A stretch of 64,000 bases of DNA. Origin: Chloroherpetonaceae bacterium (GTDB lineage Bacteria; Bacteroidota; Chlorobiia; Chlorobiales; Thermochlorobacteraceae). Of this stretch, positions 25,180-40,320 are shown in pieces. The translations under genes and the position numbers were made by a program. Each line of letters opens with the position of its first letter. Within the stretch, counting starts at the first letter, position 1. Under the pieces are notes generated by a model that saw only the letters and a list, made by a program, of their open reading frames with translations, was not told the origin of the DNA and did not search any database. The stretch is from contig JANWWA010000011.1 of NCBI GenBank assembly GCA_025056565.1, forward strand, positions 1 to 64,000, read 5' to 3'.

Positions 25180-28100
25180 TTACTTTTTGCTTGGCTTTGG
25201 CACTGTGATGTTGAACGACTTCGTATCTTCACCACCCGCGTCATCTTTCACAGTTATCTGTACTGTGAACCGACCGATAGTTTCTTCACTGGCTTTGAAG
25301 GTTAGTTTGCCTTCAGGCGAGAGCGTTGCGCCCTGTGGTAAGCCCGTAGCCGTAAAGGTGAGCTTATCCTCTTTGTCTTCATCGGTTGCCACAAGTTGCA
25401 AATCAAGCGTTTCGCCTATTTTCACGGTCGCATCTTTCGGCTTTTCCAGTTTCGGCTTTCGATTTAGTCGCTCAATTGTTAGCGACACGCTCATTGTGTC
25501 TTCTGCGCCAAAAGAATCCTTTACGCTAAACTTCACTTCGTAACTACCACGCTGACCGTAGTCAGGCTGCCAAGTAAATTGCTGATTGCTAAACTGTGCG
25601 CCCTGCGGCAAGCCCGCCGCCGTATAGCTCAAGCGTGTGTCCTCACGGTCATTGTCGCTGGCTGAGATGCGGAATGAAATTTTATCTCGCTCTTTGGCTT
25701 GAATCGCGTTCTGCCGCACAAACTTCGGACGATAAGGCACACGTAAGACAAACGACTTGGTATCTGCACCATCAAGGTCGTCTTTCACAGTTACTTGCAC
25801 ATTATATGTGCCACTCTGCGCATCATCGGGCGTGAAAGTGAGCTTGCCTTCAGGCGAGAGTGTTGCACCCTGTGGTAAGCCCGTAGCTGTAAAAGTGAGC
25901 TTATCTTCTTTGTCTTCGTCGGTGGCGACAAACTGAATTTCAAGTGGCGTGCCTAACTTCGCCACCACATCTTTGGGCTGCTGCAGCACAGGTTTTCGGT
26001 TAAGCCGTTCAATCGTCATTGCCACACTCATTGTATCTTCTCCACCGAAAGAATCCCGCACACGGAACAACACCGCATAACTGCCACGCTGGCCGTAGTC
26101 AGGCTGCCACGAGAACGTTTGCGTTGTGCGGTCAAACTTTGCACCCGCAGGTAAATTCTCGGCAGAAAAGACCAGCTTGCCCTTATCCTCTTTGTCAAGG
26201 TCTTCGGCAGAAACTTTGAATGAAATATTCTGTCGCTCTATTGCTTTGATGGGTTGCGCCGCCACAAATTTCGGTGCCCGATTGGTGTTCTGAATCGTAA
26301 TGGTCTGTGTTTTCTTATCTGTGAGACCTTCTACATCGGTTACAGTGTAGCTAATTTTGTAAGTGCCAGATTGCTCAAAGTTTGGCGTCCAAGTGAAGGT
26401 TTTGCCATCGAACTTTGCGCCTTCGGGCAAGTTTTCTGCCGTCACTTTCAGCTTACCTTCGTCTTCGACATCGGGGTCTTGTGCCGTGATGTCAAACTTC
26501 AGCTCTGCATTTTCACTGCCTTTGGCATCAGCAATTGGGTCAAGTTTTGGTGGACGGTTGGTGTTTTCAACTGTAATGGTTGCAACGGCTTCGCCTGAGA
26601 GTGGCGTGCCATCAATTCCTGTATCAGTCGCGCGGAAAATTACGCGATAAGTGCCTGACTGTGTGTTATCGGGTTTCCACGCAAATGTGCGCGTTTTGGG
26701 GTCAAAGTTTGCCCCTCGTGGCAGACTATCGGCAGAGAAAGTTAGTTTGCCCTCATCTTCTTTGTCAGGGTCACTTGCGCTTACAGTGAACGTCAGTTGT
26801 GCATTTTCACGCACTTGCTTGCTGGGAATTGCTGCCACCACAGGCGGACGGTTCTTTTGCTTCACCGTGATAAAAACGGTCATTGTGTCTGAGAGGCGCT
26901 TGTTACTGGGCATTAGTTTAGCATCAAGTCCTTGGTCTTCGACCTTAAAGCGCACCGTGTATTCGCCTGCTTGTGTGTAGTCAGGCTTCCACTTGAAGGT
27001 GCGCGTTGGCGGGTCGAAGGTTGCGCCTTTCGGAAGGGCGCTGGCTGTGTAGGTTAGTTTGCTTTCATCCTCTTTGTCGGGATCAATGGCTTCAACCACA
27101 AAGTTGCCATCTGTGTCTTCAGTGAAGATTTGCTTTTCCATCCGGGTAAATTTCGGTGCCAGATTGACATTATCGACTCGAATTTTCAGCTCTTTGGAAT
27201 CGGTCTTTGCACCGCGCTTATCCGTATTTGCATCTTGCACGGTGAATTTAACGCTGTAGTCTCCTGCCTGCGTGAAATCGGGTCTCCAAGTCAGTGTGCG
27301 TGTAGCAGGGTCGAAACTGGCGCCTCGGGGCAAATTGTCCGCAAAGTAAGTAAGCTTTCCAGCATCTTCTTTGTCGGGATCTTTGGCTTCGGGCAGTTGG
27401 TATTTTAGCTCTCTATCTTCCAGCGTGAGTTGAGCTTGAAGCTCTGGTAAGCTGGGTGCGCGATTGACGTGATTGACTGTAATGCGCAGTGGCAATTCGC
27501 TGTAGAGTGAATCGCGTGAAAGTTCCGTAATACGCACCTTGAAATCATAGACGCCTGACTGGTCGTAAGTTGGCCTCCAAGTCAGGGTGCGCGTCTCTGT
27601 GTTGTAGAAACAGCTATCGGGCATCTTTCCTGCTGCCGGCAGTAGCGAAATGCGCACAGGGCTGCCATCTGGGTCATTCCCCTCAAAGGTGTAAGTGAGC
27701 AGTTGGTCTTCGTCAGCAGAAAGATTCTTGACATTCGTAAGGAGCGGCGTGAGATTGAAGTTATAGACCAAAAGCCCGTTCTTGTCTGTTGCAGCATAGA
27801 TGGCATGGTCAGCCACCACCATTCTCCCAATTTCACCAATGCCGCGGTCTGCTTTTTCCACAGGGTTATCGGCTTCGTCTGAATCCGAGAACATCTTTTT
27901 AAGGTCATAGACCGTTATGCCACCGCGTCCTGCACCTACGAAAAAGAAGCGCGGGTTCAGCGTGTAGTATGCTAACCCTCCCACATATGTCCGAAAGTTG
28001 TATGAAAAAATGCGCTTTGGCAGATTGATATTTGAGATAGAGAGAACTTCAAAGCCATTGGCTGCGTTGGCTAAGAAGACCAGCGTATCGTTTGCAATTG

Positions 28101-28809
28101 CATAGCGCAGTGTTTTAGCACTAGGGTAATTAGAAAGCAGCCTTAAGCTACTTGGGTTTGTTGCATCTAAAATGCGCAGCCCCCCCTCACGGTCGCTGAC
28201 AAAGAGCTTGCCCTTGTTGTAAGATACTCCCCAAGCATAGTTCCAAGGCAAGAGCTGTGAGGTTTCCGCAATCCGCTCAGGCTTGGCAGGATTACGCAAG
28301 CTCCAGACCTCAATGCCACCTTTGCCTGTGGCGACGAAGAGGTAGTTTTTTTCATCGTCCGTGCATAAATCATATGATTCTTTCGAGAGTGTCTGAAAAC
28401 TGCCCACTAACTTAATTTGTGTAGGGTCAGCGACATTGAAGACATCAATGCCGTTGGTATTGTCGCTCAGGTAGAGGTAATTGTCTTTTTTTACCATACC
28501 TGCAGTCGGCAGTGAAATCTCTTTTGAGAAGCCCAGCTGGAGCGGCTCGAGGCGATTTTTGATGTCATATGTGTATAAACCTGCCGTGTTTGCGGCTAAG
28601 TAGAGCACATCCCCTTCTACACAGATGGCAGCAATCCCATCTCGAGCAAAAATCGGGTCGCCCACTCGTTCCAGCTTATTGAATGACGCTAGTGCGTCGG
28701 CGCTGTATGGTGTGTACTGTGCAGCGGTTTTTGAACTTGCAAAAAGAACCAGTACTAAGAAAAGACAAAGCCTCACAGTTGGGTGAGAAGGATACAGAAT
28801 ACGCCTCAT
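25180..28809 (-). CDS. Giant secreted protein: LVIVD propeller plus nine Ig-like repeats
   Basis: The protein has 1209 residues from the ATG at 28809, with a signal peptide ending TAAQ. Residues about 45-370 hold seven LVIVD-type blades (patterns such as LYLSDNTNGIDVFNVADP and LFVSDREGGLRILDATNP). From about 375 to the end come nine cadherin/putative-Ig-like repeats of 90-100 residues, each with a D-x-D-x-E-D calcium-site-like motif, L-x-A-x-x-LP-GA-F, and W-PD-x-Q-G-Y. It ends in VPKPSKK without a type IX sorting domain. It is probably a surface adhesin or scaffold. A divergent Omp85 gene begins 87 bases away. Confidence 0.8.
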   Translation of the reverse strand: MRRILYPSHPTVRLCLFLVLVLFASSKTAAQYTPYSADALASFNKLERVGDPIFARDGIAAICVEGDVLYLAANTAGLYTYDIKNRLEPLQLGFSKEISLPTAGMVKKDNYLYLSDNTNGIDVFNVADPTQIKLVGSFQTLSKESYDLCTDDEKNYLFVATGKGGIEVWSLRNPAKPERIAETSQLLPWNYAWGVSYNKGKLFVSDREGGLRILDATNPSSLRLLSNYPSAKTLRYAIANDTLVFLANAANGFEVLSISNINLPKRIFSYNFRTYVGGLAYYTLNPRFFFVGAGRGGITVYDLKKMFSDSDEADNPVEKADRGIGEIGRMVVADHAIYAATDKNGLLVYNFNLTPLLTNVKNLSADEDQLLTYTFEGNDPDGSPVRISLLPAAGKMPDSCFYNTETRTLTWRPTYDQSGVYDFKVRITELSRDSLYSELPLRITVNHVNRAPSLPELQAQLTLEDRELKYQLPEAKDPDKEDAGKLTYFADNLPRGASFDPATRTLTWRPDFTQAGDYSVKFTVQDANTDKRGAKTDSKELKIRVDNVNLAPKFTRMEKQIFTEDTDGNFVVEAIDPDKEDESKLTYTASALPKGATFDPPTRTFKWKPDYTQAGEYTVRFKVEDQGLDAKLMPSNKRLSDTMTVFITVKQKNRPPVVAAIPSKQVRENAQLTFTVSASDPDKEDEGKLTFSADSLPRGANFDPKTRTFAWKPDNTQSGTYRVIFRATDTGIDGTPLSGEAVATITVENTNRPPKLDPIADAKGSENAELKFDITAQDPDVEDEGKLKVTAENLPEGAKFDGKTFTWTPNFEQSGTYKISYTVTDVEGLTDKKTQTITIQNTNRAPKFVAAQPIKAIERQNISFKVSAEDLDKEDKGKLVFSAENLPAGAKFDRTTQTFSWQPDYGQRGSYAVLFRVRDSFGGEDTMSVAMTIERLNRKPVLQQPKDVVAKLGTPLEIQFVATDEDKEDKLTFTATGLPQGATLSPEGKLTFTPDDAQSGTYNVQVTVKDDLDGADTKSFVLRVPYRPKFVRQNAIQAKERDKISFRISASDNDREDTRLSYTAAGLPQGAQFSNQQFTWQPDYGQRGSYEVKFSVKDSFGAEDTMSVSLTIERLNRKPKLEKPKDATVKIGETLDLQLVATDEDKEDKLTFTATGLPQGATLSPEGKLTFKASEETIGRFTVQITVKDDAGGEDTKSFNITVPKPSKK
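25200..27760 (-). repeat. Nine tandem Ig-like repeats within the giant gene
   Basis: Nine units of about 270-300 bases. The last four read as a duplicated pair: repeat 6 resembles 8 (QPDYGQRGSY) and repeat 7 is almost identical to 9 (TATGLPQGATLSPEGKLTF). The near-identical DNA blocks lie about 540 bases apart. Confidence 0.8.
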
Positions 28810-28895
28810 TGGTAAATGGAATGCATTTTGGGTTTTATGGTTACACATTCAGCGTGGCAGCTGAGCACTTGCTACATCGTGAGACCTTTCGGCAA

Positions 28896-30793: not shown

Positions 30794-30826
30794 GGGCGAG
30801 CTACTGCTCGCCCCCTTGATTTTTTC
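30794..30826. terminator. Bidirectional terminator between omp85 and the cytochrome operon
   Basis: GGGCGAGC (30794-30801) pairs with GCTCGCCC (30806-30813) across a TACT loop. GATTTTTTCG follows on the plus strand and a shorter TTTTGC on the minus strand. It lies between two convergent genes. Confidence 0.8.
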
Positions 30827-30841: not shown

Positions 30842-32263
30842 TTACTTTGCTTCTGCTACCCTTTGGTTTTCGCGCTCACGCATAAGCTGCGCAATACGGC
30901 TTTTGTCTTTGTTCACGGTGTAGTCCAAGTAATCGTTCAGCGCTGCAATTTCCTCAGGGGTACCTACCAGCTGCGGCATATACTTCTTGTAGGGCGAACC
31001 ATCTTGATACTCGTGTAGGGTTTTTAGGAAGTTGCCAATTGCTTGATGGTCTCGACCCGATAAGAACTTGGCTATTGAGCGATAGCCCGTTGTGGTGTGG
31101 CAGTTTAGGCATTGCCCACGATACATCGCTTCGCCCTTAGCTAAAATGAGTTCAGGTTCATTGGTCTTATCTGCTACCTGACGCACCCACATTGATTTGC
31201 TTAGATAGCCCTTGCTATTCAGTTCAGCGACTTCGCTGCGGCGAATACCGTTGGAATACATATGCTGCGCAATTACATATGGCTTACGGAGCATTTCGCG
31301 CGCATACTCTCCTGTTGCCGTTACGACAGCCGCCAGACACAGCACGGCTAAGCCATGTCCGAATGTAAAGTCCTGAGGCGCACGGCGCACAAAGAAATAC
31401 ACTACGCCGACAATCGTGGCGGATGTCATCACCATTACCAGCGCAATGCGCGTTACTTGCGTAAACGCGCCAGAACCAATTGTAGAAATGCCAAGCTCCA
31501 GCAGTGAGCGATTCGCTTCAGGCACACTGGCAAGATACCAGAGAAATGCCAGCGGCGTTGCCACAAACGAGGGAATCAGCCACTTGGAGCTCCAAGTAAT
31601 CAGCTCACCTTTTGCTTCATCGTCATTTCCTAAGCGGCTGTAAGAGACCAGCGCCCAAATTCCTGCCAGCGAAATGCACACCAAGAAACGCAGAAAGAGA
31701 CTGGGGAAATAAGTTGGATTAAAGAATGCCGACCAGAACTGTGATGCTTCTTGCCCTGTGCCTGCTACCGCAAGCCATGCATCACCAGGCGTGAGCATAA
31801 AGGTGAGAATGCCGTTGATAATCACCAGCGTTAAAAATGACGATACGGCATACACCCACCCTACGCGCTGATGCGCCTCGTGCGAAATCTTATTCCATGA
31901 GTAGTAATACACCGCCGCTGCCGAGAGTTCAATCACGAAAAACACCCACTCTATAGCCCACCCGAAGACAAAGTTGTGAATGAGTGTGCTGGTTGATTCA
32001 GGGTGTGCTAGTCCAATTGCAAACCAGATACCAACGCCTGAAATAGCCCCGAACACGCCAGTCATAATCAGGAAAAAGCGCGAGTGCCTTTGTAGGCGTG
32101 GCAGCCAGTCCAAGCGATTTTGTTTCAGCGCTATGCGTTCTGCAATCACCAAATACAAGCCTCCCCCTACGGCAAATTGGGAGATGAGCACATGCATAAT
32201 TGAGATAAGGCCAATCACCCAACCACTGCCGATAAAGGGCACGTCCCAAAATGGATAGTTCAT
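30842..32263 (-). CDS. CydA-like bd-oxidase subunit fused to a c-type cytochrome
   Basis: This 473-residue protein has 8-9 membrane helices and a C-terminal cytochrome c domain (Cys385, Cys388 and His389 in CLNCH, probable axial Met in KKYMPQL). The membrane part aligns by eye with CydA. His24 in the first helix matches the E. coli His19 site, Glu105 and Glu112 (AIEWVFFVIE) match Glu99/Glu107, and Glu319 in GEYAREMLRKPYV matches Glu445. The low-spin haem b558 His186 position appears to be Arg192 (FFNP...FLRF), and the long quinol-binding loop is absent. Electrons probably enter through haem c from the Rieske/cytochrome b partners. Last gene of a four-gene operon. Confidence 0.8.
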   Translation of the reverse strand: MNYPFWDVPFIGSGWVIGLISIMHVLISQFAVGGGLYLVIAERIALKQNRLDWLPRLQRHSRFFLIMTGVFGAISGVGIWFAIGLAHPESTSTLIHNFVFGWAIEWVFFVIELSAAAVYYYSWNKISHEAHQRVGWVYAVSSFLTLVIINGILTFMLTPGDAWLAVAGTGQEASQFWSAFFNPTYFPSLFLRFLVCISLAGIWALVSYSRLGNDDEAKGELITWSSKWLIPSFVATPLAFLWYLASVPEANRSLLELGISTIGSGAFTQVTRIALVMVMTSATIVGVVYFFVRRAPQDFTFGHGLAVLCLAAVVTATGEYAREMLRKPYVIAQHMYSNGIRRSEVAELNSKGYLSKSMWVRQVADKTNEPELILAKGEAMYRGQCLNCHTTTGYRSIAKFLSGRDHQAIGNFLKTLHEYQDGSPYKKYMPQLVGTPEEIAALNDYLDYTVNKDKSRIAQLMRERENQRVAEAK

Positions 32264-32314
32264 AGTCTCTTACTTCCTTTCTCTTGCTTTAAGTTGGTTT
32301 TGGTTAGGTTTGAA

Positions 32315-33394
32315 CTACAATGCAAGGTATCCCCAGATAGTCGTGACCACAATGATACCGAGTGCCAAGAGTCCGAAATATGTAGCATTGCGAGCACGCC
32401 GCCCATTTTCGTGCTTGCCATCGTAGAGTGGAATCAGCGCCCAAAGCAGCAAACCTAAGGTGAAAAGTGTAATACCTACAGCTTCCCCGAAGGCTGCCAT
32501 ATCGCCCGAAAAGAGCTTACCCAAAAGTTTTAGCGTCTGGAAGGCACTCATAAAATACCACTCAGGGTGAATGCCCTCTGGAGCAGGCTTCAAGGGGTCA
32601 GCCTCCTCACCAATACCCCACGGGTAAATTGATGCACAAAGCGCTAGCACATTGAGCGCAATGAGCCACATTGCAAGGTCCTGCATCAAAAAGTTGGGGA
32701 AAAATGGCACGGACTTTCGCTGCCACTCGGGCTTGGCTTCTTCACTGGGTGGCACGGCATTGCCATGCTTCTGCACCAGCCAAAGGTGAAAAATGAGAAT
32801 CGGCAGAAAAATTGCCGGCATCACGACCACATGCATCGCAAAGAAGCGCTGCACCGTTATATCACTGACCTCCAAGCCACCTCGAAAGAGATTGGTCATT
32901 GGCGGGCCAATGATTGGCAAGGCTTCTGGAATAGACAGTCCTACTTTGGTCGCAAAGTATGCCAGCTCGTCCATTGGCAGAAGATAGCCGCTAAAGCCGA
33001 ATAGCAGTGTGAGAATGAGGAGAAGCATCCCACTCCACCAGCCAAACTCACGTGGCGAGCGATAGGCCTTCATAAAATAGACAGAAAACATATGCACAAA
33101 GACCGCTACCACCATTAGATTTGCTGACCACGAGTGTGCTGAGCGAATCAGCCAGCCAAAGTGGATTTCATTTGTAATCTGCCGTACCGATTCATATGCT
33201 TCGTGTCCTGGACGATAGTAGACCAGTAGCAAGACACCTGTTACGCACTGCACGATGAAGAAAAAGAGCGAAATGCCGCCCCAGAAATACCAAAACGAAT
33301 GCTGATGCACAGGCACCGTCTTCTTTGAGGCAAACTTGATAATGTCGCTAATGCTGAGCCGCTCATCCACCCAGCGATAAAGGGCTTTCATCAT
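32315..33394 (-). CDS. Cytochrome b, b6f-type, of a Rieske/cytochrome b complex
   Basis: This 359-residue protein has about eight helices, a b6-plus-subunit-IV fusion. The haem His pairs are H-x13-H (HSWSANLMVVAVFVH) and H-x14-H (HVVVMPAIFLPILIFH); the 14-residue spacing is that of b6f-type proteins. The quinol-oxidation motif is PEWY (HPEWYFMSAF). It receives electrons from quinol and splits them between the Rieske centre and the b haems. A Shine-Dalgarno AAAGGAG precedes the ATG. It is the third gene of the operon, 22 bases after the Rieske gene and 51 bases before the CydA-cytochrome c gene. Confidence 0.93.
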   Translation of the reverse strand: MMKALYRWVDERLSISDIIKFASKKTVPVHQHSFWYFWGGISLFFFIVQCVTGVLLLVYYRPGHEAYESVRQITNEIHFGWLIRSAHSWSANLMVVAVFVHMFSVYFMKAYRSPREFGWWSGMLLLILTLLFGFSGYLLPMDELAYFATKVGLSIPEALPIIGPPMTNLFRGGLEVSDITVQRFFAMHVVVMPAIFLPILIFHLWLVQKHGNAVPPSEEAKPEWQRKSVPFFPNFLMQDLAMWLIALNVLALCASIYPWGIGEEADPLKPAPEGIHPEWYFMSAFQTLKLLGKLFSGDMAAFGEAVGITLFTLGLLLWALIPLYDGKHENGRRARNATYFGLLALGIIVVTTIWGYLAL

Positions 33395-33416
33395 AGCTTA
33401 CGACTCCTTTCAGGGG

Positions 33417-33905
33417 TTAGGCTTTTGAAATGGTTACACCATTTTCACCGACTTCCACCTTGTAAGTTTTGAGCGGCTTTGGCGGTGGCCCCGCCACTGC
33501 TGCTCCCGTCTTGACATCATAGACACCACCATGGCAGGCGCAAAAGAGTCGATTGGTATCAGGTTGATACTGCACGGTGCATGCCATATGCGTGCAGACC
33601 GCCTCCATGGCTGTCCACGAGCCATCTTTGTGATGAATGAGAATACCTGGGCGCGTGCCAAACTTAAACATCACGGCTGAACCCGGCTCTAACTTATGCG
33701 CTTCTGGCAAATGTACCTCTGAGACTTTTGCCGCTTCAGCTGACTTCTGTATAGGTGATGCCAGATATTGATAAATCGGATAGCCAATCGCTCCAGCGTA
33801 GCAAAGTCCTACGCCAGTAAAGAGCACCTTTGCAAACGTTCTGCGACTGATTGGCTCTGCTGGCACGCTTTCAGTCGCCAGCTTTTGTTCTACTGCGTTA
33901 CTCAT
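33417..33905 (-). CDS. Rieske 2Fe-2S protein, Tat-exported
   Basis: This 162-residue protein has a twin-arginine motif (ISRRTFAK, residues about 19-26) followed by a single membrane anchor (VLFTGVGLCYAGAIGYPIY). The cluster boxes are CTHMAC and CACHGG, with all four ligands (two Cys, two His) and both disulfide cysteines present. Box I has Ala where Gly is usual, which may slightly tune the potential. It oxidises quinol together with the cytochrome b encoded next and passes electrons to a c-type haem, here most likely the fused cytochrome c. Its ATG overlaps the upstream CydA'-like stop as ATGA. Confidence 0.93.
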   Translation of the reverse strand: MSNAVEQKLATESVPAEPISRRTFAKVLFTGVGLCYAGAIGYPIYQYLASPIQKSAEAAKVSEVHLPEAHKLEPGSAVMFKFGTRPGILIHHKDGSWTAMEAVCTHMACTVQYQPDTNRLFCACHGGVYDVKTGAAVAGPPPKPLKTYKVEVGENGVTISKA

Positions 33906-35074
33906 TTTGCCACTTCCTCCACACTTGATTTGGATTCAAAAATCGTATTGTCCAGTCCTAGCACAACTGGCTTGGCTTTGAACACCACCGTTAGCAGCCA
34001 CCCAACCACGCCTAGACCGATGACAAAGAGGACAAGAAAAATTGCTACAACTGACCAGTTTGTTACCACGACCCTATCCCACACATCAAAACCTTTTGTA
34101 AGCAAGGTTACATCACGCAAAGCATCACGGTAAGCCGTCATTGATAGCATTGCAACCACCGCCATAACAAAACCTGCCCAGCCAATTATGCGAGAGGGTT
34201 GCGACTGCACCGCACTCCATACAGCTAACGCAAAAAGCACGCCCGCTAGCCCTACCCAAAGGTAGCCTGAGACAGTCGCCAAGAGCGATTGCCCGAGTGC
34301 GTCTTGCACAGCTGGTGGTTGTGCCACTACGACCCAATACGCACATACACCCTGCGCAAAAAGCCCAGACGCAGCTAACCTCCCACCTAATCCGCTCATA
34401 TAAGTTTGCAGGTCTCGGAAGAACTTGCTGGATGGCGCCAGCCACAGCAGCCAGATGCCTGCTACTGAAAAGCCTCCGAACAAGATAAAGAGCCAGCGCG
34501 GTGTTGTCGTGGGGTCGTCAAATGGCAACTGCGCACCCAGTGGCGAATTAGTGTATAGCGCGTTCCACACTTCGGGGCGCAGCATTAAGGTCATGTTGGT
34601 TGAGTAGATGCGTGCAATGACCACCGCCAGCACCCACGCGCCAAGCCCAAGATGCCAATAAGGTTTTCCTTCAGTTGCTCGTGCTGAAATGCGATACAGT
34701 AGCCAATAACACCCCATCAGCAGAAAAATGACCGCAAACCAGTATAGCCCAATGAGAATGCTGCTAGTATAAATCGCTCGCCCATATAGCACTTGCGTAA
34801 AGAGCAAAGGCGGCACGCCAAGGTTAATCACATAAGTCATCACGATAGGCAGCCGATTCGCAATGACCTGTCCTGTTTGAGCACGATTCACGGCTGAAAG
34901 CTGTCGCGGCTCTCGCCGTGAGAGCACATTCATCGCTACTGCCACCAGCAGCCCACCCATCAGCATTTCCATTGCTACAAAGTGCAGCCCTAGCGTTACG
35001 ATATGCAGAAGTTTGAAGAGCCAGACAGGAGCGGGTAGTGGAATTGGGTCGACAGCAGGAAAGTGATACTCCAT
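33902..35074 (-). CDS. CydA'-like nine-helix membrane protein, first gene of the cytochrome operon
   Basis: This 390-residue protein has about nine helices. It is homologous by eye to the CydA-like protein at the other end of the operon: helix 1 has His24 (KLLHIVTLGLH) at the same position, STNMTLMLRPEVW matches NGILTFMLTPGDAW, and SVAGIWLLW matches SLAGIWALV. The Glu pair of the active subunit is missing, and there is no CxxCH. I therefore read it as an inactive CydA' partner, as in CydAA' pairs, occupying the CydB position. A good Shine-Dalgarno (AAAGGAG) precedes the ATG. It could instead be an unrelated quinone-binding subunit. Confidence 0.65.
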   Translation of the reverse strand: MEYHFPAVDPIPLPAPVWLFKLLHIVTLGLHFVAMEMLMGGLLVAVAMNVLSRREPRQLSAVNRAQTGQVIANRLPIVMTYVINLGVPPLLFTQVLYGRAIYTSSILIGLYWFAVIFLLMGCYWLLYRISARATEGKPYWHLGLGAWVLAVVIARIYSTNMTLMLRPEVWNALYTNSPLGAQLPFDDPTTTPRWLFILFGGFSVAGIWLLWLAPSSKFFRDLQTYMSGLGGRLAASGLFAQGVCAYWVVVAQPPAVQDALGQSLLATVSGYLWVGLAGVLFALAVWSAVQSQPSRIIGWAGFVMAVVAMLSMTAYRDALRDVTLLTKGFDVWDRVVVTNWSVVAIFLVLFVIGLGVVGWLLTVVFKAKPVVLGLDNTIFESKSSVEEVAK

Positions 35075-38921: not shown

Positions 38922-40199
38922 TTATGTTTTCTGCTTCTTCTTTTGCGCCGCTGGGAAGAGCACATTGTTAAGAATTAGGCGGTAGCCAGCAGAGTTTTTG
39001 TGCAGCGCCAGATTAGTTGGTGGGTCGCCAATGTGATGCTGATAGTCTTCGGGGTCGTGCCCGCCATAGAAGCAAAATTGCCCTTTGCCATAGTTGCCAT
39101 GTAGGTAACGCACTTCTTCTGTGCCTTTCTTTTCGCCCATAATCACCACCGATGACTTAATGAGCGACTTGCGAAAGGAGGTGGTTTGCCCATAAAACCC
39201 TTTGATGATAGATGTATGATTTTGCGTCAACATAGAGGGCACAGGGTCAAACTTCGCACTGAACTCGAAGAGCGTGAAGTAATCGTTCTCAGGTCCAGTT
39301 GCGCTGCCCGTCATTTGCGGATTGATGTCAATGTTAGACTTGGAGTATTCAAATGGGTTTAGGCTTACGGTAAAGTTTTCAAAAGCAAAGGTTTTGGAAA
39401 AATCCAGCTTTTTGTTTGCATCAGGCGTTACGCCGTCGCCATCGAATTCGGCAGGTACAATGTCAATACCCTCAGCCGCAAGGGCAATGTCGTAGCTATC
39501 TGGTGCGGAGCACATTGCAAACATAAAGCCGCCTTCTCCCACAAAGTCGCGTATCGCACGCGCAACGGCTTTCTTCTCTTCACTTACTTTCGTGAAGCCT
39601 AATTTACGTGCCATTTGCTCTGCGTCTCGCACTTGTCGGATATACCATGGCGCATTGCGGAAGCCTGCAAAGAACTTGCCATATTGCCCTGTGAAATCTT
39701 CGTGATGCACATGTAGCCAGTCGTATTTTTTGAGGTCGCCTCGCAGCACTTCTTCGTCCCACACTTTGGCAAAGGGAATCTCAGCGTAGGTCAGCACCAG
39801 CGTTACTGCATCGTCCCACGGCAAGTTTGTCGGAGGCACATAGACGACAATCTTTGGTGCTTTTTCAAGGCGCATTACGGCTGCATTATTATCCTCACTC
39901 TCAATCTCTGCAAGAATGCGTGTCGTTTCTGCGCTGGTGAGTTCTTCGTAGCGCACACCTCGAACAACAAGCTCTGAAGCTACAGCTGGCAACGCATCAA
40001 CGAGAAAAGAGCCTCCACGATAATTCAGTAGCCAATCGACAACGATTCCCTTCTGCAAACACCAATACGCTACACCATATGCTTTCAGGTGGTCAGTTTG
40101 TGTCTTGTCCATTGGAATCAGTAACTTCTGCCCAACAGCCTGCGAAGCGATTGCGCTCAGCAGTATACATAGTCCTACAGCTCTGTGCAGCATTCTCAT
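38922..40199 (-). CDS. Secreted ThuA/glutamine-amidotransferase-like protein
   Basis: The protein has 425 residues from the ATG at 40199 (ATG at 40193 also possible), with a signal peptide ending AVGQ. Database relatives are often named asparagine synthetase B, but no asparagine synthetase domain is visible. The region around YDWLHVHHEDF and the strand/helix pattern with FVGEGGFMFAMCSAPDSYDIAL resembles a class I glutamine-amidotransferase/ThuA-like fold. HGNYGKGQFCFYGGHDPEDYQH is also distinctive. The function is unknown, perhaps a periplasmic hydrolase. It is upstream of the GT87-like gene. Confidence 0.65.
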   Translation of the reverse strand: MRMLHRAVGLCILLSAIASQAVGQKLLIPMDKTQTDHLKAYGVAYWCLQKGIVVDWLLNYRGGSFLVDALPAVASELVVRGVRYEELTSAETTRILAEIESEDNNAAVMRLEKAPKIVVYVPPTNLPWDDAVTLVLTYAEIPFAKVWDEEVLRGDLKKYDWLHVHHEDFTGQYGKFFAGFRNAPWYIRQVRDAEQMARKLGFTKVSEEKKAVARAIRDFVGEGGFMFAMCSAPDSYDIALAAEGIDIVPAEFDGDGVTPDANKKLDFSKTFAFENFTVSLNPFEYSKSNIDINPQMTGSATGPENDYFTLFEFSAKFDPVPSMLTQNHTSIIKGFYGQTTSFRKSLIKSSVVIMGEKKGTEEVRYLHGNYGKGQFCFYGGHDPEDYQHHIGDPPTNLALHKNSAGYRLILNNVLFPAAQKKKQKT

Positions 40200-40320
40200 T
40201 ACTCCAAGCGATTTGTTTTCAAAAGTGTGGGGTAAGGTAAAAAACACTCTGGCTGCAGGTCAATGCAGATTTGCAATGAACCTGTGCGCTTTAGCAAGGA
40301 CGGTTTTTTGAGCCGACCAC

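Follow-up and report, generated by a model that had tools for sequence, protein, structure and literature searches.

A conserved operon of Rieske, cytochrome b and two CydA-type genes as a putative menaquinol:O2 oxidoreductase with a fused haem c

Genes of the locus

Four adjacent open reading frames were found on the minus strand of the window (the whole stretch of 64,000 nucleotides that was analysed), at exactly the positions that an earlier note on this DNA had given; they are called A, R, B and C here. The first gene of the operon, A (33902..35074, 390 aa), encodes a CydA'-like subunit with nine predicted membrane helices. It is followed by R (33417..33905, 162 aa), assigned with Pfam to a Rieske [2Fe-2S] protein, whose N-terminus (SRRTF) is twin-arginine-like, and by B (32315..33394, 359 aa), assigned in the same way to a full-length cytochrome b with four haem histidines and PEWY at the Qo site. 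The last gene, C (30842..32263, 473 aa; Pfam), encodes a CydA-like subunit with a mono-haem cytochrome c fused to its C-terminus. A and R overlap by 4 bases, and the spacings are 22 bases between R and B and 51 bases between B and C.

An inverted repeat of eight pairs (30794..30813, no strand assigned) lies between the end of C and a convergent Omp85-type gene. By pattern match only, it may be a terminator shared by the two; terminator-like sites numbered 8 in the region and 5.7 (sd 2.6) in shuffled sequence. A single promoter-like site was found upstream. Chance alone would give 4.7 such sites in the region, and a promoter is therefore not supported.

The CydA-type subunits

C was matched to the Pfam family Cyt_bd_oxida_I (2.4e-16; best stretch, residues 15-202). 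Its AlphaFold model, calculated from an alignment of 71 of 81 homologues, had a mean pLDDT of 89.8 and superposed on ten CydA entries with Z of 28.8-30.4, i.e. it has the CydA fold. The tail (residues 375-446) resembled a cytochrome c of the CBB3 type in Pfam, with an E of 0.0011 that fell under the family's cut-off, and cytochrome c6 in the fold search (Z 5.4-6.8). The C-terminal CxxCH domain of the earlier note was borne out by conservation: C385, C388, H389 and M429 were invariant in all 60 C homologues compared (58 from four-gene loci, some of them cut by contig ends, and two from fused ones).

Four residues of the bd structure 5doq (His21, Glu101, Glu108 and Glu378), which we take to be those of the two-haem oxygen site of cytochrome bd, align with H24, E105, E112 and E323 of C. 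All four were invariant in the same 60 sequences and in the 21 copies from two-gene loci. The position of His186 in 5doq, presumably a ligand of haem b558, is occupied in C by an invariant arginine (Arg192). C thus lacks one b558 ligand of the canonical quinol-oxidising bd enzymes (qOR), and the four genes likewise include no CydB partner of the qOR kind.

Pfam gave no convincing match for A (best E 0.97) or for 66 A homologues; lacking a Pfam family, A is invisible to annotation. Plain sequence searches by themselves also returned nothing on this protein. The AlphaFold model of A (65 of 74 listed homologues in the folding alignment; mean pLDDT 93.7) matched CydA structures with Z of 27.3-30.3. 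A profile-profile comparison of A with C gave a probability of 96.8 and an E of 2.1e-10 over 273 columns at 20% identity. The homology of the two outer genes, which had been proposed by eye, was therefore upheld, and the structure predictions that had been suggested as a check placed the CydA fold in both proteins, with matches at Z 27-30. The fold and the profile comparison ruled out that A is an unrelated membrane protein. H31 of A is kept in 57 of 57 homologues from four-gene or fused loci, and D317, at the position of Glu378 of 5doq, in 55 of the 57. No invariant glutamate was found by alignment in helix 3, where A has Q94; the full set of oxygen-site residues is thus not present in A.

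The Rieske protein and cytochrome b

R was matched to the Pfam Rieske family with 2.6e-14, and B to Cytochrome_B (3.8e-45) and Cytochrom_B_C (6.4e-07). The attributes of a Rieske/cytochrome b complex were each invariant in the 59 aligned sequences: the cluster ligands of R (C104, H106, C109, C122, C124 and H125), the four haem b histidines of B (H87-x13-H101 and H188-x14-H203), both as the earlier note had read them, and PEWY, also noted then, as the Qo motif. A loose RR pattern was present in 42 of 56 unfused R homologues.

The further description of B as b6f-type held in part. The haem spacing fits, but the equivalents of b6 and subunit IV form one chain of 359 aa, and the position that we take, from a placement by eye, as Cys35 of cytochrome b6 (the cysteine for haem cn) is Tyr or Phe in 59/59 sequences. 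The b6/subunit IV split, the cysteine for haem cn (by this placement) and cytochrome f that mark a cytochrome b6f are thus missing, as is the cytochrome c1 subunit that marks a cytochrome bc1. In agreement with the earlier note, neither c1 nor f was found among the four genes. Within 6 kb of 60 related loci, as far as the contigs reach, no conserved extra c-type cytochrome was found either, and a hidden c1 or f gene nearby thus did not come to light. The commonest neighbour family (ABC-transporter-like ATPase by eye) occurred at 7 of the 60 loci, and a few loci have genes placed within the cluster that show no conservation. The genome of the window also has a second Rieske/cytochrome b pair, which stands alone without a c subunit and which we take to be of the green-sulphur-bacterium type; its Rieske protein is 25% identical to R and its cytochrome b 44% identical to B.

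Distribution of the operon

Of 325 relatives found, the best 80 were fetched, i.e. the most similar ones. Complete A-R-B-C sets in the same order were present in 55 of these 80, from eight phyla by record title, and B and R were nested between A and C in every one of the 55. The gene-neighbourhood search that the earlier note had recommended for Rieske, cytochrome b and two CydA-like genes was thus positive, and the recurrence ruled out chance or misreading. Eighteen of the best 80 had only C and A, without R and B and in reversed order (C before A). Alignments and trees were made without L063 (C cut by a contig end), L068 (frames broken) and fragments shorter than 330 (A), 140 (R), 340 (B) or 400 aa (C). 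In the tree of C, the two-gene and four-gene copies lay on separate sides of a fully supported branch. The distances of the four genes were correlated (Mantel r 0.68-0.81; 0 of 999 permutations as high); shared species history was not subtracted and accounts for part of this correlation.

In two Verrucomicrobia MAGs (L064 and L066), A and the Rieske protein are joined in one reading frame. This fused pair branches inside the four-gene clade, and no cytochrome b was found in either genome. This lineage has apparently lost it, and its electron donor need not be quinol. The fusion, as read from the sequences, indirectly supports a physical association of the subunits.

Within the class of the window, all 9 genomes of the window's family had C, and none of the 89 others did. 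The family is that of Ca. Thermochlorobacter and includes a described aerobe; the species Ca. Thermochlorobacter aerophilum is reportedly described in a paper. Of the 60 loci with the four genes or the fusion, 50 were taken into genome-wide searches (all except L012, L026, L038, L039, L044, L049, L054, L056, L058 and L061). COX1 was present in 44 of the 50 carriers, and a haem-copper oxidase gene was also found in the genome of the window; the complex would therefore rarely be the sole oxidase. A CydB match was obtained elsewhere in 18 of the 50 carrier genomes to which its search applied (the window's own genome was outside it); the Ca. Thermochlorobacter record (G001) gave none. NrfD was searched for in 10 chosen genomes and complex I in 7. 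Five of the 50 carriers, all MAGs of unreported completeness, had one CydA-type match and no match to COX1, CydB or NrfD; complex I was present in these five. Two carriers lacked cytochrome b as well as COX1 and CydB.

Proposed complex and alternatives

We consider it probable that the operon specifies a single dedicated menaquinol:O2 oxidoreductase, its bd-type site supplied with electrons from the Rieske/cytochrome b module by way of haem c; the physical assembly, the electron route, oxygen as the substrate and menaquinol as the quinol are all parts that we infer. The products of A, R, B and C would assemble in the membrane as one complex, with menaquinol as the reductant and oxygen as the acceptor. 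B and R would carry out bifurcated quinol oxidation (the Q cycle), and the Rieske centre would hand an electron to haem c, whose domain forms the C-terminus of C on the periplasmic side and would take the place of cytochrome c1 or f. From there, the electron would move to the two-haem oxygen site within the CydA-like part of C. A would be the CydA' partner of C, taking CydB's position in the structure; it may bind a single haem. The Q cycle and the bd chemistry together would couple about 2 charges per electron, twice the value of an ordinary cytochrome bd.

Several observations favour a single quinol:O2 machine fed through haem c: the operon is conserved, the distances of its genes are correlated, A is fused to the Rieske protein in two genomes, and one b558 histidine is absent from C. 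The CydA folds of A and C, the invariant oxygen-site residues of C and the invariant cofactor ligands and PEWY of R and B point the same way. The restriction of C, within its class, to the family with a described aerobe was also counted in its favour, as were the five carriers that have complex I and none of the three other families. The self-contained quinol:O2 oxidoreductase of the earlier note is supported in part: its structural elements stand (CydA folds in two homologous outer proteins, a fused haem c, a PEWY-bearing cytochrome b of full length, and neither c1 nor f), and against it speak the C-A pairs without R and B and the fused lineage without cytochrome b. A stricter version can be advanced tentatively, at slightly under even chances: a single obligate complex in eight or more phyla, with the Q-cycle module and the bd-type site tied by the fused haem c and about 2 charges per electron, from which one Verrucomicrobia lineage shed cytochrome b, its CydA'-fused Rieske protein being fed by a donor that we leave unspecified.

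C and A may instead be a separate enzyme, since they occur without R and B in 18 of the best 80 of 325 loci. The operon would then encode two enzymes, a Rieske/cytochrome b quinol dehydrogenase and a cytochrome c:O2 reductase (C and A), linked by a diffusible cytochrome c or by transient contact. Rieske/cytochrome b pairs without a c subunit are also found by themselves, the window's own genome having one, and the OR-N CydAA' enzymes have been proposed to draw electrons from cytochrome c (PMC10839748). We nevertheless regard this arrangement as unlikely: the nesting of B and R is constant in the complete sets, two-gene and four-gene copies of C are parted by a fully supported branch, A is fused to the Rieske protein in the Verrucomicrobia pair, and C carries a haem c of its own.

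The same assembly could mainly scavenge oxygen or reduce nitric oxide or peroxide, for protection and not for energy. Most carriers already have COX1 (44/50), and two have neither cytochrome b nor either of the oxidase families searched. The intact Q-cycle module, with PEWY kept in 59/59 sequences, suggests energy coupling instead, and, within the window's class, presence tracks the family to which a described aerobe belongs; sequence signs of another substrate were not met, although none was specifically searched for. A protective role is thus rather improbable. Still less probable, and in our estimate very much so, is that the CydA-like subunits are a mere membrane scaffold for haem c in a quinol:cytochrome c reductase that does not reduce oxygen. 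The haem c of C could fill the role of cytochrome c1 or f, and in the alignment the helix-3 glutamates of CydA are missing from A; a scaffold, however, would not need H24, E105, E112 and E323, which C keeps without exception in both kinds of locus.

Comparison with known systems

Respiration is usually divided into alternative branches, with quinol-oxidising bc complexes in one and bd oxidases in the other. If the four products form one complex, a bd-type oxygen site could run behind a Q cycle, with the expected energy yield doubled, and the annotation of oxygen respiration would change for several phyla with few cultured members. A putative respiratory complex would be added to the family of Ca. 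Thermochlorobacter; the key gene of this complex was sought in 89 relatives from the same class and not found in them. A single obligate complex, if true, would be a further architecture of aerobic respiration.

The paper of Murali, Gennis and Hemp (2021) is said to define the OR-C/OR-N families and the CydAA' enzymes of the cytochrome bd superfamily. No published description of the four-gene set, which the earlier note had named as grounds for withdrawing its proposal, was found in the open-licence PubMed Central papers searched, a body of literature that does not include Murali 2021; within it, the parts are known already and the combination is a possible new element. The papers that came up dealt with Nitrospira, Nitrospina, mycobacteria and other subjects, and none on OR-C1 with cytochrome bd was found. 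According to later papers, the OR-C/OR-N and CydAA' proteins keep the CydA fold and the residues of the active site, lack the canonical entry for quinol, and have paired CydA-type subunits (PMC13189123, PMC10839748, PMC12342949); cytochrome c has been proposed as the donor of OR-N (PMC10839748). The present set shares with them the CydA fold, active-site residues in the absence of the canonical quinol entry, and two paired CydA-type subunits. As far as the citing papers describe these families, OR-C in particular, it would differ in that R and B lie between its CydA-type genes and that its catalytic-type subunit carries a fused haem c.

The two-gene loci are similar in their fused-haem-c CydA-like protein, their CydA'-like protein and the invariant residues of C; they differ in the absence of Rieske and cytochrome b, in gene order and in their side of the C tree. 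The green-sulphur-bacterium-type pair in the window's genome resembles R and B in its full-length cytochrome b and in having neither c1 nor f, but it stands alone. In the actinobacterial bcc-aa3 supercomplex, a bc module is tied to a haem-copper oxidase by a built-in cytochrome c. The proposed complex would be joined in a like manner, with an oxidase of the bd type and not of the haem-copper type. Entries of the bcc-aa3 type appear among the listed structure-search matches.

In Nitrospira moscoviensis, complex III genes and bd-like oxidases lie in one region, and a III-IV supercomplex has been proposed (PMC6606698). That region is larger, with several bd-like genes and separate cytochrome c genes, and is not a compact four-gene operon with a fused haem c. 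A related bd-like protein of Nitrospina is given 14 helices (PMC3578206). OR-N5 is placed downstream of alternative complex III (ACIII) in Nitrospirales (PMC12342949); there, as here, the genes of a quinol-oxidising complex are grouped with a gene for a bd-like oxygen reductase. ACIII has no relationship to Rieske/cytochrome b complexes, the type to which the R and B module of the present operon belongs.

Organization of the operon

Exactly at 30842-35074, where the earlier note had claimed four same-strand genes, the open reading frames of such a set were present on the minus strand. These were A (33902-35074; CydA'-like, with no convincing family match), R (33417-33905; a Rieske protein), B (32315-33394; a full-length cytochrome b), and C (30842-32263), whose first 200 residues match CydA and whose C-terminus forms a mono-haem cytochrome c domain. 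An Omp85-type gene lies downstream and is convergent with the operon. The genome comprises 2.92 Mb in 75 contigs, with a listed completeness of 100%. Elsewhere in the window, a 1222-aa protein (25180-28848) that is rich in Ig/cadherin-like repeats and weakly matches LVIVD is likely a surface protein, and a 441-aa ORF (38922-40247) had no Pfam match at E 0.001.

Fold, conserved residues and topology

AlphaFold models of A and C had pLDDT values of 93.7 and 89.8, respectively. A CydA-like fold was found for both (best Z: A, 30.3; C, 30.4); the next group, subunits of alternative complex III and polysulphide reductase, scored well below (Z of 15.2-18.5). A and C are mutually related, and the C-terminal part of C resembled cytochromes c6 (Z of 5.4-6.8). 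When 66 members of the A family were compared to Pfam, none had a convincing match (the best, E 0.00087, was to MgtC in 2 members); the family is a sizeable group of membrane proteins that lacks annotation.

Residues of C were mapped through a profile alignment with 5doq, a CydA structure from Geobacillus. His21, Glu101, Glu108 and Glu378 of this structure correspond to H24, E105, E112 and E323 of C, all invariant in the 60 four-gene or fused copies and the 21 two-gene copies (all forms are described below). His186 of 5doq, which we take to be a ligand of haem b558, aligned with R192 of C, which is likewise invariant, as are C385, C388, H389 and M429. With these invariant residues, the arginine at the His186 position and the haem c ligands, C looks like an oxygen-site subunit that would lack the canonical quinol entry and carry its own haem c. 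In A, 57/57 sequences retained the helix-1 histidine and 55/57 had an acidic side chain at the site in helix 8; no invariant helix-3 glutamate was seen in the alignment of A homologues.

By our count, eight helices are predicted in C ahead of the haem c domain, which should thus lie on the side of the N-terminus. The N-terminus of CydA is periplasmic; applied to C, this orientation would place haem c in the periplasm, where the Rieske head lies. The nine helices predicted in A would put its C-terminus on the side opposite its N-terminus. This modeled topology allows the membrane helix of a Rieske protein to be appended to the C-terminus of A, an arrangement that the naturally occurring A-Rieske fusion demands.

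The cofactor ligands of R and B, and the PEWY motif of B, were kept in 59/59 sequences. Another contig of the window's genome (L087:6862-8677) carries a further Rieske/cytochrome b pair that lacks an adjoining c subunit; the members of this pair are 25% identical to R and 44% identical to B.

Conservation and history of the locus

When 84,980 species genomes were scanned once for C, 325 relatives emerged, of which the best 80 were examined. A, R, B and C were complete and in order in 55 of these 80. One further locus had all four genes with broken frames, three were cut by contig ends (the remaining genes being in order), and only part of C was visible in another (L063). In two (L064 and L066), A and R were fused and followed by C, with B absent; in 18 of the 80, C preceded A, and R and B were both missing. 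According to record titles, the complete loci include Chlorobiota, Verrucomicrobiota, Acidobacteriota, Armatimonadota, Omnitrophota, Planctomycetota, Hydrogenedentota and Sumerlaeota. In L024, L032, L049 and L052, unrelated genes interrupt the R-B or B-C interval; by eye, these include similar short ORFs (L024, L032) and a dehydrogenase-like ORF (L049). In L070, L071 and L074, a single A was preceded by a tandem pair of genes for CydA-like haem c proteins (C-C-A), downstream of what appeared by eye to be a cbb3-type oxidase-like cluster.

Among the 55 complete sets, distances of the four genes correlated with r of 0.68 to 0.81, values that contain a contribution of shared species history and were matched in 0/999 permutations. 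In the careful tree of C, a branch with full support (100/100) separated the two-gene copies from all others. By their labels, the two fused copies must fall within the four-gene group, and in 0/200 bootstrap trees did the unfused four-gene copies form one side of a branch; the exact place of the fused copies is uncertain because of their long branch. A quick tree of A, several inner branches of which were weak, agreed. The simplest history would be a single origin of the four-gene form, with later cytochrome b loss and A-Rieske fusion in one Verrucomicrobia lineage.

The fusions occupy one open frame each (L064:6308-7972, 554 aa; L066:6282-7991, 569 aa) and offer the strongest indication of contact between A and R. 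Searches of these two genomes returned no match to cytochrome b, COX1, CydB or NrfD, and a single CydA-type and a single complex I match in each.

Distribution and accompanying oxidases

In the window's class, C was found in 9/98 genomes at E 1e-30, i.e. in 9/9 of its own family and 0/89 of the others. The full A-R-B-C order was present in seven of the eight family relatives; a contig end cuts the remaining one. The nearest named relative of C (87% identity) is from Candidatus Thermochlorobacter aerophilum, described in excerpts of two papers (PMC9560492, PMC3534657) as an aerobic photoheterotroph of the Chlorobi. An excerpt of PMC11788075 reports night-peaking expression modules enriched in energy genes, including quinol oxidases, in Thermochlorobacter and other hot-spring-mat phototrophs.

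Of 50 carriers searched, 44 had COX1, 48 cytochrome b and 18 a CydB match (one weak). Since most thus have another oxidase, the complex would not generally be the sole means of oxygen respiration. In five of the 50 (L040, L047, L060, L064 and L066; MAGs of unreported completeness), COX1, CydB and NrfD were not found and the CydA-type match was single, which makes C the sole oxygen-reductase candidate there within these searches. The window's genome has one COX1 gene on another contig (L088), adjoined by what appeared by eye to be a cluster for alternative complex III and a caa3-type oxidase.

Proposed mechanism

The four products likely form one quinol:O2 complex. The predicted cofactor sites are established by conservation; we infer every electron step of the route. 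Menaquinol would be oxidized at the Qo site of B. One electron would move through the b haems; its partner would reach the Rieske centre, pass to the haem c of C and end at the CydA-type haems, a pair at which oxygen would be reduced using protons drawn from inside. For each electron, a Q cycle moves one charge and bd chemistry adds a second, so the complex could total about 2 charges per electron. The fused lineage also shows that B is dispensable, which is at odds with a strict quinol oxidase.

Comparison with known systems

PMC13189123 splits the cytochrome bd superfamily into qOR, OR-C and OR-N, and the OR-N CydAA' enzymes are believed to take their electrons from cytochrome c (PMC10839748). 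In Nitrospirales, alternative complex III is followed downstream by OR-N5 types, according to PMC12342949. In Nitrospira moscoviensis, one region holds a Rieske/cytochrome b pair and bd-like oxidases, and an excerpt of PMC6606698 proposes a III-IV supercomplex; the idea of such a supercomplex is thus already published for Nitrospira. Neither the compact four-gene form, in which the CydA-like subunit bears a fused haem c, nor its breadth, nor the A-Rieske fusion was described in the literature searched, although Murali 2021, the defining paper, may mention them. Compared with these systems, the operon appears to be a new combination built from known parts.
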